A DNA stretch of 32,088 nt, taken from NCBI GenBank assembly GCA_009908735.1, contig JAAAOR010000087.1, positions 1 to 32,088 on the forward strand, written 5' to 3'. The first letter of the stretch is position 1. Each line of letters begins with the position of its first letter. This document shows positions 11,198-23,129 of this stretch, piece by piece. The translations under genes and the position numbers were made by a program. The notes beneath the pieces are model-generated. The model had not been told where the DNA came from. It searched no databases and saw only the letters and a program-made list of their open reading frames with translations. This DNA is from Spirochaetota bacterium. GTDB lineage: Bacteria; Spirochaetota; Spirochaetia; DSM-27196; PWMO01.

Positions 11198-12298
11198 GTG
11201 CGAGCACGCGGAATTTTTGCACTGTTGATCTTTCTGTCGCTGCTAACCCCGGCGGGTGCTCAGACCGCCGAGGAGCCGGACTCGCGGGCGGAGGATCGGG
11301 ATGTGGGAGTCGTCCCCCTGCCGGTCGTCGGGTATTCTCAGGACACGGGCACACTCTTCGGTGCCGCTGCCTTCATTTTCTGGCAGCCCGCCACCAACGT
11401 AACCTCGACCACTAACAACACGCTTTCCGTCGTGGGTTTCTACGGCACACGCAATGTCGTGGGCTTTCCGATGAACCTGACCCTCAACCTCGCGGACGGG
11501 CTCTACCGGCCCGAGCTCGGCTTTTTCATCGGCCGCGCGCCGTCGGATTTCTACGGGATCGGACCGGACGCCGAGCTCGACGACGAGGAGGTCTACACGA
11601 GCTTCACGATGGACGCGGAGGTGGCCTTCCTGTTCAGGCTTTACCCGCAGCTCTACGCGGGACCCGCCGTCAACTGGATCTACCAGGACGTTCTAGAGAC
11701 CGAAGACGGCGGCATTCTCGATACCCGGGACATCACCGGAAACGAGCGGATCCGCACCGTCGGAGCCGGCGCCCGCATCGACTGGGACACACGGGAGCCC
11801 CAACTCTATCCCTTTTCCGGCCGGCTCCTCAGCGTTTCCACCATCGGTTACCCCGGCGGCATTGCCTCTCATGCGGGTTACACCATCGCTTCGCTCGACT
11901 ACCGGAGGTTCTTCAACCCCTGGGGCCGGCACGTGATCGCGCTACAGGGCAAAATCGACTGGGCCCTCGGGGACACGCCCGTGCATTACCTTCCGTACCT
12001 CGGCGGTTCGAGCGCGATGCGCGGGTACCCCGAAGGGCGTTACCGCGACGACATTGCCGTGCAGGGGCAACTAGAATACCGCTTTCCCATCGTGTGGCGC
12101 TTCGGCGGCGTGGTTTTCGGGGCTGCCGGGCAGGTAGCCCCCTCGATCGGCGAGCTCGAGGCCGCGGGCCTCCCTCTTGCCGGCGGGCTCGGGTTGCGCT
12201 TCGCCTTGAATACCGAGGAGAATATCAATCTCCGGATCGACTTCGCCGTTACGCGTGAGGGAACCGGCTTTTACGTGAATCTGCGGGAGGCGTTCTAA
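11198..12298 (+). CDS. BamA/TamA-like outer-membrane beta-barrel protein
   Basis: A 366-residue protein starting with GTG at 11198 behind a G-rich ribosome binding site. Signal peptide MRARGIFALLIFLSLLTPA with cleavage near residue 21 (AGA-Q). The mature part begins with about 20 acidic residues and then alternates amphipathic strands to the end, finishing ...FYVNLREAF with a C-terminal Phe, the outer-membrane insertion signal. The motif GGSSAMRGYPEGRYRDD (near residue 268) matches the conserved RGY/RGF loop of Omp85-type barrels (surface-antigen/D15 family). No POTRA domains precede the barrel, so it is a barrel-only member; such proteins act as porins or as partners of inner assembly factors rather than as full BamA. 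It ends four bases into the convergent DHH gene. Confidence 0.88.
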   Translation: MRARGIFALLIFLSLLTPAGAQTAEEPDSRAEDRDVGVVPLPVVGYSQDTGTLFGAAAFIFWQPATNVTSTTNNTLSVVGFYGTRNVVGFPMNLTLNLADGLYRPELGFFIGRAPSDFYGIGPDAELDDEEVYTSFTMDAEVAFLFRLYPQLYAGPAVNWIYQDVLETEDGGILDTRDITGNERIRTVGAGARIDWDTREPQLYPFSGRLLSVSTIGYPGGIASHAGYTIASLDYRRFFNPWGRHVIALQGKIDWALGDTPVHYLPYLGGSSAMRGYPEGRYRDDIAVQGQLEYRFPIVWRFGGVVFGAAGQVAPSIGELEAAGLPLAGGLGLRFALNTEENINLRIDFAVTREGTGFYVNLREAF

Positions 12299-13476
12299 CT
12301 TACCGCCTGCTTGAGGGTTGCAACCAGTCTGTCAACGTAGGCGGCAAAGTCGCCGACCTCCGACTTCTCCACGCGGAACCCGATCGCCCCTTCATGGCCG
12401 CCGCCGTTCTCGACCTCCAGCTTCGGGAGCACGTTTCGCAGGTCAAGAGCGCGATAGGCAAGGCTTCGGCGTACCCTGAACTGAATGAGATCCGAGCTCT
12501 GTGGCGAGTCATAGTAGCCGACCATGCTCAGGTATCCGCTTTCCTCGGCCAGCTCGTCGGCAATACCGCGGGCCACGGAGATGATCGTGTCGCCGTCGAA
12601 GTTGCGGTGGGCTTCCTCGCTCTCGGTCTCGTCGAGTACGGCGTACCCCACCGGGCCGTCGAGCCGGCGGTGCCGGGATATATAGGCGTGAAAGCGTGCC
12701 TCGTCGTCGGAGAGGCGGCGCAACTCCCCGTAGATCTGCTTCATGTTGAAAAAGTTGGTATCCTTCGTCGTTTTCTTGGCGAGCAGCTCGTTGAACATTC
12801 GAGAGAACATGTCGTAGAAGCGCTGCTCCCGACGCGACTTGATGAACTTTCCCATTTGGGTGTCGCCGACGATTCCGGTCAGGAGGGTAAGCACCATATT
12901 GCGAGAGAACATGTCGCCGACCTCGAACTGCTCCATAATATCCGGCTGCTCGCTCATCTTGCAGGCAAGCAGGCCGATGAGCTCGCAACTCGAGGATGCC
13001 TCGGCCACAAGACAGTATTCTTCGTCGCCGTTGTACCGCGCATCCGCCTGCAGATGATGGTCCATCTCGATGCGAAGAATGTCGGGGTGACCGAGGAGCT
13101 CTCGAACTTCGTCGGTTGCCTGCAGCATGCTCGGCTTCGGGGTATCGCAAATTATCACTGTGTCCACGCGAGATAGGGCGTCTGCGCAGCCGGAGTTGAT
13201 CTCGATGGAGTTGTACTTGCAGATGTCGAGGAGGTACTGGTAATGCTCGGGGAGCTCAGGAGAGGTGCAGATGATGGGTTTCTTCGACATCTTGCTCAGA
13301 ATCAGCGATACGGAAACCATCGCCGAGATGCAGTCCTCGTCGGGGCTCTGATGGCCGACGATCAGAAAGTTCTCACGCTCGACGAAGGCCCGCGAGATAT
13401 TTCGTATGATCCGGTTTTTTCGGGCGATGGTCGGAATATCCTGTTTGCGAACCTCAGTTCGGTCAGATCGGTTCAT
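12295..13476 (-). CDS. DHH/DHHA1-family phosphoesterase
   Basis: A 393-residue cytoplasmic Mn-dependent phosphodiesterase. Motif I GHQSPDEDC (His42, Asp46, Asp48), motif II CDTP (Asp111), motif III EMDHH (Asp139-His140-His141), a further Asp in GIVGDTQ (near 219), and the C-terminal DHHA1 motif GGGHEGAIGF near residue 359. Every metal-binding element is present. Soluble DHH/DHHA1 proteins degrade short RNAs and linear dinucleotides (NrnA-type, including pGpG and pApA) or pAp; GdpP-like relatives cleave c-di-AMP but carry PAS/GGDEF and membrane parts missing here. It is the third gene behind two cNMP-GGDEF genes and its start overlaps the previous stop by 14 bases. This suggests it clears pGpG or another nucleotide product of that module; substrate is inferred. 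Confidence 0.9.
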   Translation of the reverse strand: MNRSDRTEVRKQDIPTIARKNRIIRNISRAFVERENFLIVGHQSPDEDCISAMVSVSLILSKMSKKPIICTSPELPEHYQYLLDICKYNSIEINSGCADALSRVDTVIICDTPKPSMLQATDEVRELLGHPDILRIEMDHHLQADARYNGDEEYCLVAEASSSCELIGLLACKMSEQPDIMEQFEVGDMFSRNMVLTLLTGIVGDTQMGKFIKSRREQRFYDMFSRMFNELLAKKTTKDTNFFNMKQIYGELRRLSDDEARFHAYISRHRRLDGPVGYAVLDETESEEAHRNFDGDTIISVARGIADELAEESGYLSMVGYYDSPQSSDLIQFRVRRSLAYRALDLRNVLPKLEVENGGGHEGAIGFRVEKSEVGDFAAYVDRLVATLKQAVS

Positions 13477-14482
13477 CTCGACCTCTGCTTGATTCAGCCT
13501 GCGCCACCTCTACACGGTTGCGCCCGGCGGATTTTGCGGCATACAGGGCCTCATCGGCGCGCGCCGAAAGGGTCTGCAGATCGTTGGCGTGCTCGGGGAA
13601 TGCGGCTATCCCGTGGCTCGTGGTGACCCGAGTGATGGTGCCGCCGCGGTGCGCGAGGACATCGAGTGCCTCGACCTCACGTCGCACCTGCTCCGAGAGT
13701 AACCGCGCGGTCGCGGCATCGGTATCGGGAAGAACGAACGTGAACTCATCCCCTCCGTAGCGTGCGAGTACGTCCGATTCCCGATAGACCGACCGAAATA
13801 CCGGTATCACCGCGGCAATGACCTCATCGCCGACGGCTTCGCTGTACTCCTGGTTTATATCGTTGAAATGATCGAGGTCGAGCATGACGAGGCATAGCGG
13901 CCGGCGAGAGGACTTGGCGCGCTGGAACATACCGGAGAGCGAATCGTCGAGGAAGCGCCTGTTGAACAGGCCGGTGAACTCGTCGGTTACCGCGCGCTTT
14001 TTCGCGCCCTCGCCCCACCGAACCATCTCGCCGAGAATGCCGCTGGTGTTTTCCAGGCGACCGCTGGTGATGCGAAGCATTTCGTACATTACCTTCATCG
14101 CTATCTCGGGCTCGCGCCTGAGCAGGCCGTGGAAGTCGGTATCACTGAGGCGCAGGAGTTCCGTACCGGCATCCGCTACGCAGGTTGCCGACCGGGGTGC
14201 TCGCTCGAAGATGGACATCTCACCGAAGAAATCTCCCTCGCCGAAGCGTGCAACCTCCTGCTGGGTGCCGTCGGGCAGCCCGACTCTTGCGGCAACCGAC
14301 CCGCGGCGCACCACAAATAGCTCTTCTCCCTCCGCGCCTTCGCTGAAGAGAGTCCTGCGGTCTCGCGCCGTCAACGGCGTGAGGTGAACCGCAATACGGT
14401 CGAGCTCATCTTCGGAAAGGGTTTGAAAAATCGCGACGCGATGCAGGAAGCTTCGCGCCTCGCGTGATGTTGCCAGAGCCAT
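13463..14482 (-). CDS. Cyclic-nucleotide-binding diguanylate cyclase (intact GGDEF)
   Basis: A 339-residue soluble protein. Cyclic-nucleotide-binding domain (~15-135) with phosphate-binding cassette FGEMSIFERAPRSAT; Glu88 and Arg97 are the residues that normally hold cAMP or cGMP. GGDEF domain (~165-325): GGDEF at 243-247, first metal Asp in LDLDHF (Asp202), guanine-contacting Asn210 and Asp219. The inhibitory-site motif RESD (234-237) lies five residues before GGDEF, so c-di-GMP feedback inhibition is expected. The loop NDINQEYSEAVGD departs from the usual KxINDxxGHxxGD, but active-site acids are kept. The ATG at 14482 is set by GGAGGAG immediately upstream. It follows a degenerate paralogue by 13 bases and overlaps the DHH phosphoesterase by 14 bases. 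Confidence 0.93.
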   Translation of the reverse strand: MALATSREARSFLHRVAIFQTLSEDELDRIAVHLTPLTARDRRTLFSEGAEGEELFVVRRGSVAARVGLPDGTQQEVARFGEGDFFGEMSIFERAPRSATCVADAGTELLRLSDTDFHGLLRREPEIAMKVMYEMLRITSGRLENTSGILGEMVRWGEGAKKRAVTDEFTGLFNRRFLDDSLSGMFQRAKSSRRPLCLVMLDLDHFNDINQEYSEAVGDEVIAAVIPVFRSVYRESDVLARYGGDEFTFVLPDTDAATARLLSEQVRREVEALDVLAHRGGTITRVTTSHGIAAFPEHANDLQTLSARADEALYAAKSAGRNRVEVAQAESSRGRDEPI

Positions 14483-14495
14483 AGCTCCTCCGCTG

Positions 14496-15485
14496 CTAAG
14501 ACGAATACCTGACGGCATTGCCACCGCTCTCCCTCGCTGCAAAGGCGCGCTCGTGCGCTGCCTCGATCAGAGCCTCGGCATCGTAGGTCCACTCGGTCGA
14601 CGAGGCGATCCCGATACTGACGGTAAGCTGGAAACCGTCGGCAGCGATAATGTCGGATATGTCGATGGCGTTCATGGCCGGCTGCACTTCGCCGGCCCGC
14701 GCGACGGCCGCGTTAAGGTCGGTTTCCGGCATGAGGAGCGCGAGCTCGTTCCCTCGAAAACGCACAGCCGACTCACCCGGAAGTGCCAGTTTCTGTAGCG
14801 TTCGGGCCATACGTTTCAGGGTTCGGTCCCCCGCCTCGTGACCGTAGGTGTCGTTCACCGCCTTGAAATTATCCGGTTTTACCATCATGACCGAAACAGG
14901 GACGGATTCGCCGCCCGCGACGTAACTGCTGTCGCTGCCGAGGAGGCGGGCTAGTTCATCGAGGAGATACGCATCGTTGTAGAGCCCGCTGAGCTTGTCC
15001 ATGTGGAGCTGGTGGCGCAGCTCTTTGACCCAGGTTGCGTTCTCGGAGATGACCCGGTTGGTGGAGCGGATGCGGGATGCAACCGTGGCGATGAGGCGAT
15101 AAAGGACCCGTGCAAACATGGAGGGGTGCTCGTGGATGATATCCTCGAGGGCGAGATTACGGCGAGGAAACAGCAGTACGCGCGTGTCGCCGTCCGCCAC
15201 GGCGGCTGCGGTCCGGGCGCCGCCGCCCATTAGATCGAGCTCTCCGAAGGACTCTCCCGAGATGAAGCGGGCCACGTCCACGCCATCACCGTCATCTCGG
15301 CGAATGACCACCGCGCCGCGATCGATCAAGCAGAGCTCCTGCGCCTGTGCACCCCGCTCGAAGATGTGCTCTCCATCGGCGAACTCGTAGTAGGCACCGT
15401 AGCCGGCGATGATCGTCATCTCATCATCGGCGAGATCATCGAAGATCGTCGAATTTCGAAGCAGTGATACTGTCCGGTCCGACAT
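14496..15485 (-). CDS. Cyclic-nucleotide-binding protein with degenerate GGDEF domain
   Basis: A 329-residue paralogue of the next gene. cNMP-binding domain (~10-130) with cassette SFGELDLMGGGARTAA keeping Glu82 and Arg91. The GGDEF domain (~163-325) has RGNEL (244-248) in place of GGDEF, and Lys203 in place of the first metal-binding Asp (VKPDNFK), so it should not make c-di-GMP. The guanine-recognition part FKAVNDTYGHEAGD is however intact, so GTP or c-di-GMP binding as a sensor or regulatory subunit is plausible. No RxxD inhibitory site is seen. ATG 15485 is preferred over 15503 because the promoter's -10 box covers 15502-15507. It is the first gene of the operon that continues into the active cyclase and the DHH phosphoesterase. 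Confidence 0.9.
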   Translation of the reverse strand: MSDRTVSLLRNSTIFDDLADDEMTIIAGYGAYYEFADGEHIFERGAQAQELCLIDRGAVVIRRDDGDGVDVARFISGESFGELDLMGGGARTAAAVADGDTRVLLFPRRNLALEDIIHEHPSMFARVLYRLIATVASRIRSTNRVISENATWVKELRHQLHMDKLSGLYNDAYLLDELARLLGSDSSYVAGGESVPVSVMMVKPDNFKAVNDTYGHEAGDRTLKRMARTLQKLALPGESAVRFRGNELALLMPETDLNAAVARAGEVQPAMNAIDISDIIAADGFQLTVSIGIASSTEWTYDAEALIEAAHERAFAARESGGNAVRYSS

Positions 15486-15501
15486 CGCGTTCACGAACCT
15501 C

Positions 15502-15530
15502 ATTATCGTGATGCGCGGGGCGTGTGACAA
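15502..15530 (-). promoter_or_regulatory. Strong promoter of the cNMP-GGDEF/DHH operon
   Basis: Minus strand TTGTCA (15530-15525), a 17-base spacer and GATAAT (15507-15502): five of six consensus bases in each box. The expected start is near 15495, about ten bases before ATG 15485, so the leader is very short. Confidence 0.65.
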
Positions 15531-22112: not shown

Positions 22113-23129
22113 CTATTCTGAGGCGACTTCAGTCAGCCCGTCTTCGTAGGTAACCGTTTGGTTGCGGCCGCGGCTTTTGCCCTCGTAGAGGGCCCTGTCC
22201 GCCTGTTCGATGCACGTTTCGATGTCCGCCACGCCGCATGAGCTCACGCCGAGGGTGATCGTCACGTGCAGCTCGTGGTCTCCGTAGTGAAATGGGGCGC
22301 TACTAATGGCGGCTCCCAGTTTTTCAGCAAGTACCCGTGCGCCCTCGCACGAGGTGTCGGGAAGGAATATCAGGAACTCCTCGCCTCCCCACCGAGCAAC
22401 TAAATCCTGGCCGCGAACCGTCTGCCGCATTCGCTCCGCTATCTCGCGAAGTATATCGTCCCCGCACTCGTGGCCGTGGGTGTCGTTTAAATCTTTAAAG
22501 TGGTCGACGTCTCCAAGGATAAACGAGTATGAGGATTCTACACGCGTTGCGCGCTCGTGTTCATATTCGGCAATAGCCATCATGTGGTAACGATTAGCCA
22601 GCCCGGTCAACTGATCGGTACTCGCCCGTTCGAGCAGCGTCCGGTTGAAACGGGCCATCTCCTCCTGCTGTGCCTGTAGCTCGTTCTCGTGCTGCACCGA
22701 GATCAGTAGCTGCTTCGAGAGGTCGTCCACGGCCGCCTCGAGCAGTTGTTGTGCTTCGAGGGCTCGAAGCTGCGCATCGACCCTCGAGCGGACCTCCGGC
22801 CCGTAGAAGGGCTTGGTGACGTAATCCACGCCGCCCGCCGCGAAACCCGCCAAGACCGTCTCTTTGTCTTCCCTCGCGGTCAGGAAGATTACCGGAGTAT
22901 CCCTGTACTGCGGCCGTTCTTTGAGCTTGCGGCAGACCTCCAACCCGTCCATCTCCGGCATCATGATGTCCAGAAGAACCAGATCGAACTGCTTATGCGT
23001 GCTTTGCTCGAGTGCCTCCGGACCGCTTCGTGCGAAGGCGATGCCGTAGTCGCCTCCTTCGAGCTCGGCCGCTACGAGTCGAATGTTGCTTGCGTTGTCA
23101 TCAACGATAAGAATATCGTGCTGACTCAT
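22113..23129 (-). CDS. Response-regulator diguanylate cyclase (REC-GGDEF)
   Basis: A 338-residue cytoplasmic protein that should make c-di-GMP from two GTP when phosphorylated. Receiver domain (1-122): Asp10/Asp11, phospho-acceptor Asp54 in LLDIMMPEMDG, Thr/Lys switch in FLTARED and VTKPF. A coiled coil (~122-165) links to the GGDEF domain (~168-330) with GGEEF, first metal Asp in LGDVDHFKDLNDTHGHECGD and the inhibitory site RGQD five residues before GGEEF. All catalytic residues are intact. The start codon overlaps the stop of the large sensor kinase as ATGA, so this cyclase is the obvious phosphorylation target of that kinase. The histone-deacetylase-like gene follows 12 bases later. Confidence 0.95.
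   Translation of the reverse strand: MSQHDILIVDDNASNIRLVAAELEGGDYGIAFARSGPEALEQSTHKQFDLVLLDIMMPEMDGLEVCRKLKERPQYRDTPVIFLTAREDKETVLAGFAAGGVDYVTKPFYGPEVRSRVDAQLRALEAQQLLEAAVDDLSKQLLISVQHENELQAQQEEMARFNRTLLERASTDQLTGLANRYHMMAIAEYEHERATRVESSYSFILGDVDHFKDLNDTHGHECGDDILREIAERMRQTVRGQDLVARWGGEEFLIFLPDTSCEGARVLAEKLGAAISSAPFHYGDHELHVTITLGVSSCGVADIETCIEQADRALYEGKSRGRNQTVTYEDGLTEVASE

Follow-up and report, generated by a model that had tools for sequence, protein, structure and literature searches.

GdpP/YybT, in which a sensor, a GGDEF domain and a DHH/DHHA1 phosphoesterase form one unit, is the nearest known relative in design of the genes described here. GdpP is anchored in the membrane. GGDEF enzymes act as dimers, each half binding one GTP and two metal ions, with the first Asp and the motif Glu as metal ligands; in CRP-like domains, a helix at the dimer interface relays the cAMP or cGMP signal. 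Here we analysed a 32,088-nucleotide stretch of a Spirochaetota genome (contig JAAAOR010000087.1 of assembly GCA_009908735.1; the whole stretch is hereafter the window), in which three minus-strand genes encode G1, a cyclic-mononucleotide-binding (cNMP) domain joined to a degenerate GGDEF domain, G2, of the same layout with an intact GGDEF domain, and a DHH phosphoesterase. This module is real, and its conservation extends over part of the Spirochaetota; we put at about 0.55 the probability that its three genes make one cNMP-gated dinucleotide-signalling complex, composed of a pseudo-cyclase, a live diguanylate cyclase and a dinucleotide hydrolase. An initial annotation, made from the sequence alone, had proposed a similar module and left GdpP/YybT unnamed.

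According to excerpts of the published sources, the COG3887 family has a modified, likely inactivated GGDEF domain fused to DHH (PMC1183210), whilst in CC_3396 of Caulobacter, a degenerate GGDEF-EAL protein, a GTP-sensing degenerate GGDEF domain controls its partner domain (PMC12943098). Precedent for cNMP or cAMP control of cyclic di-GMP (c-di-GMP) enzymes is provided in the excerpted text of PMC6717892 by Bd1971 of Bdellovibrio, a c-di-GMP enzyme under the control of a cNMP domain, and by Lcd1 of Leptospira, a cAMP-sensing GGDEF protein in a spirochaete.

A degenerate and an intact GGDEF protein in tandem

The gap between G1 and G2 and the overlap between G2 and the DHH gene, as initially annotated, are exact to the base (Table 1). 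Pfam detected in both GGDEF proteins a cNMP domain well above cut-off (PF00027, 1.7e-19 for G2 and 3.4e-14 for G1) and a GGDEF domain (PF00990, 4.5e-42 and 2.3e-30, respectively). The diguanylate cyclase signature of G2 is complete, comprising the GGDEF motif, the metal Asp, the guanine-contact Asn and Asp and the C-terminal Lys and Arg, and its sequence reads MLDLDHF, RESD (the RxxD site) and GGDEF. G1 reads VMMVKPDNFK, with Lys203 (numbered from start 15485) at the first metal Asp, and has RGNEL for GGDEF, so that neither the metal Asp nor the motif required of a diguanylate cyclase is present; the guanine-contact segment is retained as NDTYGHEAGD. In both window cNMP pockets (FGE...ARTA and FGE...PRSA) the phosphate-binding-cassette Glu and Arg that bind cyclic nucleotides are kept. 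The assignments of Lys203, RGNEL, the guanine-contact segment, the RxxD site and the cNMP Glu and Arg agree with the initial annotation.

To place these states among relatives, a first sample of 296 genomes of the phylum was searched with the window DHH protein, a G1 profile was matched to 59 of the 296 genomes (at 1e-45), and the domains in the fetched loci were classed with three profiles as 80 G1-type and 74 G2-type. The first metal position is Asp in all 74 G2-type domains and Lys in 80/80 G1-type domains, the latter count being partly built in by a profile made from Lys-bearing sequences. A count made with the GGDEF family as a whole does not carry this bias; it found Asp (n = 16), Glu (n = 2), Asn (n = 2) or Ser (n = 1) and no Lys among 21 non-G1 GGDEF domains of three genomes. 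Lys was also found in all of the best 120 of 309 database G1 relatives, the 14 with an organism name being Spirochaetota, and in seven of seven further G1 loci, two of which also lack the Glu of the motif; these Lys-bearing sets overlap in part. The GGDEF motif occurs in only 3/80 G1 domains, against 65/74 G2 domains (the remainder being GGDEY, AGDEF or SGDEF), whilst the guanine-contact Asn and Asp are both present in 74/80 G1 and 60/74 G2. C-terminal Lys and Arg were recorded in 68/74 G2 and Arg and Gly in 63/80 G1, and an RxxD site in 34/80 G1 and 43/74 G2.

Among 84 loci holding either type, 60 have the two genes in tandem on one strand, G1 immediately before G2 (57 counted by script, with L048, L119 and L164, which have over-long open reading frame (ORF) starts, added from coordinates), and in ten both share one ORF, a fusion that the pair tree explains with one change. 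G1 stands alone in ten loci and G2 in four; two of the G1 loci (L168 and L169) are cut by a contig edge. A FastTree tree of the 80 G1 and 74 G2 domains separates the two types with a local support of 100, with a warning from the program of long branches inside it. Two or more pairs are present in nine genomes (G072, G088, G108, G144, G163, G175, G179, G184 and G208), and the pair therefore seems to duplicate as a unit.

Two side observations concern G1 loci. Eight loci (L109, L111, L112, L114, L115, L116, L129 and L138) have a solitary Lys-type G1, with no G2 in the stretch that was fetched, and all eight keep the cNMP Glu and Arg. Genes of one cluster lie directly upstream of G1 in L040, L047 and L103, and the scanned member (L047) is a phosphofructokinase.

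Conservation of the triplet and natural fusions

Matches to the window DHH protein were obtained in 53/296 genomes at <=1e-20, of which 45 reached <=1e-70; the other eight, a much weaker and distant group at about 28-30% identity, were excluded from counts on the 45 closer genomes. Of the 45, 11 carry G1, G2 and DHH together and in this order, two of these with G2 and DHH in one ORF, and a further genome lacks G1 but has G2 and DHH. For the remaining 33, neither G1 nor G2 was found in the fetched stretch around DHH, which in at least two cases (L072 and L080) ends at a contig edge just upstream of DHH. The closest genome found, the Spirochaetes metagenome-assembled genome GSL.Bin19 (G001), carries on one contig G1, G2 and the beginning of DHH, arranged as in the window; its DHH gene is split over two contigs, and the pieces are 92% and 90% identical to the window DHH.

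With a G2-DHH fusion as the query against 392 genomes, a second sample that overlaps the first, eight genomes showed an uninterrupted G2-DHH ORF, including both from the first sample, and G1 is directly upstream in all eight. This sample adds seven triplet genomes, six with G2 and DHH fused and one (L207) with three separate genes. Conservation of the gene order across genomes, which the initial annotation had set as its own test, is thus borne out by 11 of 45 genomes and the seven additions.

Database relatives of the fusion numbered 196 at <=1e-40. All of the best 120 of these 196 carry the full set of GGDEF-domain residues checked (first metal Asp, GGDEF motif, guanine-contact Asn and Asp, C-terminal Lys and Arg) and retain both the DHH and the GGGH motif. 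In the cNMP pocket, Arg is found in 120 and its acidic partner in 119 (one gap), and cNMP, GGDEF and DHH domains were called together in 119, the other having no cNMP call. The inhibitory site (I-site) varies in the same set (Arg in 83, Asp in 88), and the six named organisms among them are all Spirochaetota. The GGDEF domain of G2 and the DHH domain, encoded by separate genes in the window, are joined in eight relatives' genomes and in these 120 database proteins. Retention of the trio and fusion of its parts in some relatives suggest one machine.

Further neighbours of DHH were noted. In 13 loci (L045, L050, L055-L058, L061, L062, L065, L067, L068, L070 and L071) DHH has a near neighbour from one gene cluster, of which the member scanned (L045) is a CHASE2-adenylate cyclase; this neighbour lies directly upstream of DHH in L062 and L071. 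In the distant group, DHH directly follows a gene of another cluster in 4/8 loci (L085, L086, L087 and L090; gaps of 4-52 bp). The one member scanned, from L087, encodes a protein with GAF and HD-GYP domains, and DHH is itself followed by a GGDEF gene in L085. These HD-GYP and GGDEF neighbours hint that the distant DHH group is also linked to c-di-GMP turnover.

The DHH phosphoesterase

The window enzyme has the DHH/DHHA1 fold of the NrnA/DhhP and GdpP type. Pfam did not call DHHA1 in the window protein; its GGGH motif is present, and PF02272 is recorded for some of its close relatives. The DHH, Asp and GGGH residues are invariant in 31 aligned sequences. An AlphaFold2 model with a mean predicted local distance difference test score of 91.6 matches structures of nanoRNases and cyclic dinucleotide phosphodiesterases, and in a profile search the best solved-structure match was the catalytic domain of GdpP, nearly tied with others. 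We attempted to assign the substrate from structure or sequence and abandoned this, as DhhP, GdpP, TmPDE and NrnA are too close to separate. Removal of pGpG, the activity initially assigned to this enzyme, is one candidate among several that include c-di-AMP and other dinucleotides. Against the curated NrnA family NF053633 the window DHH scores 23.4 bits, far below the cut-off of 350. Other pathway genes were also scored in the relatives' genomes, and the 12 first-sample genomes with G2 beside DHH encode class III cyclases (n = 12), HD-GYP (n = 12) and EAL (n = 10) proteins; the pathway around the module is thus in place there, which favours the complex proposed below.

Proposed mechanism and alternative explanations

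The gene order, residue states, conservation and natural fusions are read directly from sequence. That the dead and live GGDEF proteins act together, as first proposed, is supported by the Lys of every G1-type domain examined, tandem inheritance and G1-G2 fusions; the heterodimer itself, the holding of GTP by G1, the cNMP gating and the DHH substrate we infer from anatomy. In the proposed complex, G2 would be a working diguanylate cyclase that carries a cyclic-mononucleotide sensor, and G1 its non-catalytic partner, which keeps guanine recognition and, given the Lys at its metal-binding Asp, would hold GTP without turnover. G1 would pair with G2 through the cNMP domains and linker helices and set when G2 is active, with cNMP bound at one or both sensors determining activity. 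The DHH enzyme, tied to the same complex and sometimes on the same chain as G2, would hydrolyse linear pGpG or pApA, or c-di-AMP, such that messenger synthesis and dinucleotide removal may be governed by one cNMP signal. A more speculative and very unlikely variant is that G1-G2 is an asymmetric diguanylate cyclase, in which the Lys of G1 replaces a metal ion, the GTP of G1 serves only as partner substrate and bond formation occurs at one half-site; the first product could then be linear pppGpG, destroyed by the attached DHH unless the cNMP signal permits closure to c-di-GMP. Such an enzyme would be the c-di-GMP counterpart of class III adenylate cyclases, which have two unlike halves.

Several results weigh against the proposed complex, in addition to the bias in the Lys count. 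One or both guanine-contact residues are missing from 14/74 G2 domains, and not every G2 need therefore be an ordinary diguanylate cyclase. The acidic residue and Arg of the cNMP pocket are kept in only 49/80 G1 and 61/74 G2, indicating that cNMP control is not universal. The earlier suggestion that the dead subunit senses cNMP therefore stands for the part of the family with a pocket, including 11 of 19 DHH-linked G1 (4/12 in the first alignment and 7/7 in the further loci), and fails for the remainder. Solitary G1 genes (eight loci uncut by a contig end) and solitary G2 genes (four) occur, so neither strictly needs the other. A model of a natural G1-G2 fusion, built from 10 alignment rows, reached a predicted template-modelling score of 0.42, at which packing is not interpretable. 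Finally, of the 45 first-sample genomes with this DHH, only 11 have it next to the pair, and adjacency to DHH requires three changes on the DHH tree and five on the pair tree.

The distribution of pockets within pairs was also considered. Across 69 pairs (L146 left out because of a gap), both pockets are kept in 27, only that of G2 in 30, only that of G1 in 12 and neither in none (Fisher p 0.0007), and solitary domains retain the pocket in 14/14 cases. A rule of reciprocal pocket loss was rejected: pocket loss in G2 is a single change on the tree, a test on independent pairs has no power, and the absence of pairs with both pockets lost carries no weight for the complex, since the G2 loss is one event.

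Three other explanations bear on the same evidence. It is possible, though not probable, that the module acts as a c-di-AMP phosphodiesterase of the GdpP kind, its cNMP-GGDEF part being regulatory only and G2 making little or no cellular c-di-GMP. This would suit the near-tied best sequence match to GdpP among solved structures, the c-di-AMP synthase domain found in 44/45 genomes with this DHH, and the PAS-GGDEF-DHH-DHHA1 layout (PMC12943098) and c-di-AMP cleavage (PMC12709177, which also gives its PAS and GGDEF domains) reported for GdpP/YybT in the excerpts of these sources. However, the catalytic GGDEF residues are retained in 120/120 of the best fusion relatives, whereas the COG3887 GGDEF is likely inactivated according to the excerpt of PMC1183210. 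Slightly less probable is a G1 that serves as a receptor or GTP sensor for other targets, beside a homodimeric G2 cyclase, with the genes together for co-expression only. The degenerate GGDEF c-di-GMP receptors PelD and Filp, cited in the part of PMC5932348 available to us, and the GTP-sensing CC_3396 (PMC12943098, likewise an excerpt) show such roles, and the solitary genes would fit them; yet ten single-ORF G1-G2 proteins, the fixed order and the multi-pair genomes argue for a physical unit, and an RxxD site in only 34/80 G1 argues against c-di-GMP reception via the usual I-site as the general task of G1.

It is unlikely that the DHH enzyme is a housekeeping nanoRNase or pAp phosphatase merely on a shared transcript with two GGDEF genes. 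Such a role would account for the 33/45 genomes with neither G1 nor G2 near DHH in the fetched stretch, and no oligoribonuclease was found over the cut-off in any of the 45 genomes with this DHH; moreover, the excerpt of PMC6256023 describes a DHH-family NrnA that cuts both pGpG and short RNA. Nevertheless, the fusion of DHH to G2 in eight genomes and in the best 120 of 196 database proteins goes against this explanation, and three or more DHH-family matches in 19/20 genomes imply that other DHH proteins could do the housekeeping.

If the three-protein complex is correct, cAMP/cGMP sensing, c-di-GMP synthesis and dinucleotide hydrolysis come together in one small assembly, whose pseudo-cyclase subunit and live partner are passed on together in many genomes of the Spirochaetota. 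The role of a dead GGDEF domain that keeps its guanine contacts and exchanges a metal ligand for Lys thereby becomes a testable question, for which the natural G1-G2 and G2-DHH fusions offer single proteins.

Genomic context of the module

On one side of the G1-G2-DHH set lies a divergent gene for an AI-2E-type transporter, and on the other a convergent gene for an outer-membrane protein. The initial claim that a single promoter drives the three genes is not upheld, as one sigma-70-like match was found against 1.1 expected in shuffled sequence, and this sole match overlaps the upstream candidate start codon of G1. A terminator-like site was looked for at the operon and none was found. A plasmid or viral origin of the module was considered and rejected, the plasmid search returning one distant match (22.9% identity) and viral contigs none. 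Elsewhere in the window, a further GGDEF-domain ORF (338 aa, 22113-23129, minus strand) matches the G2 profile over its GGDEF part only.

Table 1. Features of the G1-G2-DHH locus, in window coordinates (aa, amino acids)
Feature	Position	Strand	Basis
DHH/DHHA1 phosphoesterase, 393 aa	12295..13476	-	PF01368, 5.9e-11
Asp-His-His motif of DHH domain	13054..13062	-	Sequence; invariant across relatives
Overlap of G2 and DHH genes, 14 bp	13463..13476	-	Sequence
G2, cNMP-binding domain and intact GGDEF (diguanylate cyclase), 339 aa	13463..14482	-	Pfam and alignments
GGDEF motif of G2, closely preceded by the inhibitory-site motif RESD	13742..13756	-	Sequence, alignment
Gap between G1 and G2, 13 bp, with ribosome-binding-like GGAGGAG inside	14483..14495	-	Sequence
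G1, cNMP-binding domain and degenerate GGDEF; start 15503 or 15485	14496..15503	-	Pfam, alignments
RGNEL replacing GGDEF in G1	14742..14756	-	Sequence
Lys codon of G1 at first metal-binding Asp position	14877..14879	-	Sequence; Lys across relatives
Sigma-70-like promoter match TTGTCA-17-GATAAT	15502..15530	-	Chance level

Comparison with known systems

No description of a cNMP-GGDEF-DHH protein or of a degenerate/intact cNMP-GGDEF pair was found in the titles and abstract starts of the open-licence literature matches listed. DhhP of Borrelia, NrnA and TmPDE have chains of about 310-340 aa that are 16-20% identical in the alignments made here, compared to 393 aa for the window DHH. Bd1971 differs in that its EAL domain degrades c-di-GMP, and the excerpt of PMC6717892 mentions neither a pseudo-enzyme partner gene nor DHH; in Lcd1, as excerpted there, cAMP is sensed by a GAF domain rather than a CRP-like cNMP domain. 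CC_3396, in the excerpted account, controls an EAL domain on the same chain, whereas the partner here would be a live GGDEF.

The differences from GdpP/YybT are more extensive. Its sensor is a PAS domain, whereas the module described here has PF00027 cNMP domains and no reported PAS, and the GGDEF domain joined to DHH is intact (in window G2 and in all of the best 120 fused relatives). Assignment to the GdpP family consequently fails, both because the DHH-attached GGDEF is intact and because the sensor is a cNMP domain. COG3887 is present in most Firmicutes, according to the excerpt of PMC1183210, and the module here in Spirochaetota. Furthermore, a separate degenerate cNMP-GGDEF protein precedes the live GGDEF of the module. 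Ultimately, it is this combination of a live GGDEF with a separate dead partner that sets the module apart from GdpP, and the pseudo-cyclase partner is its most unusual part.

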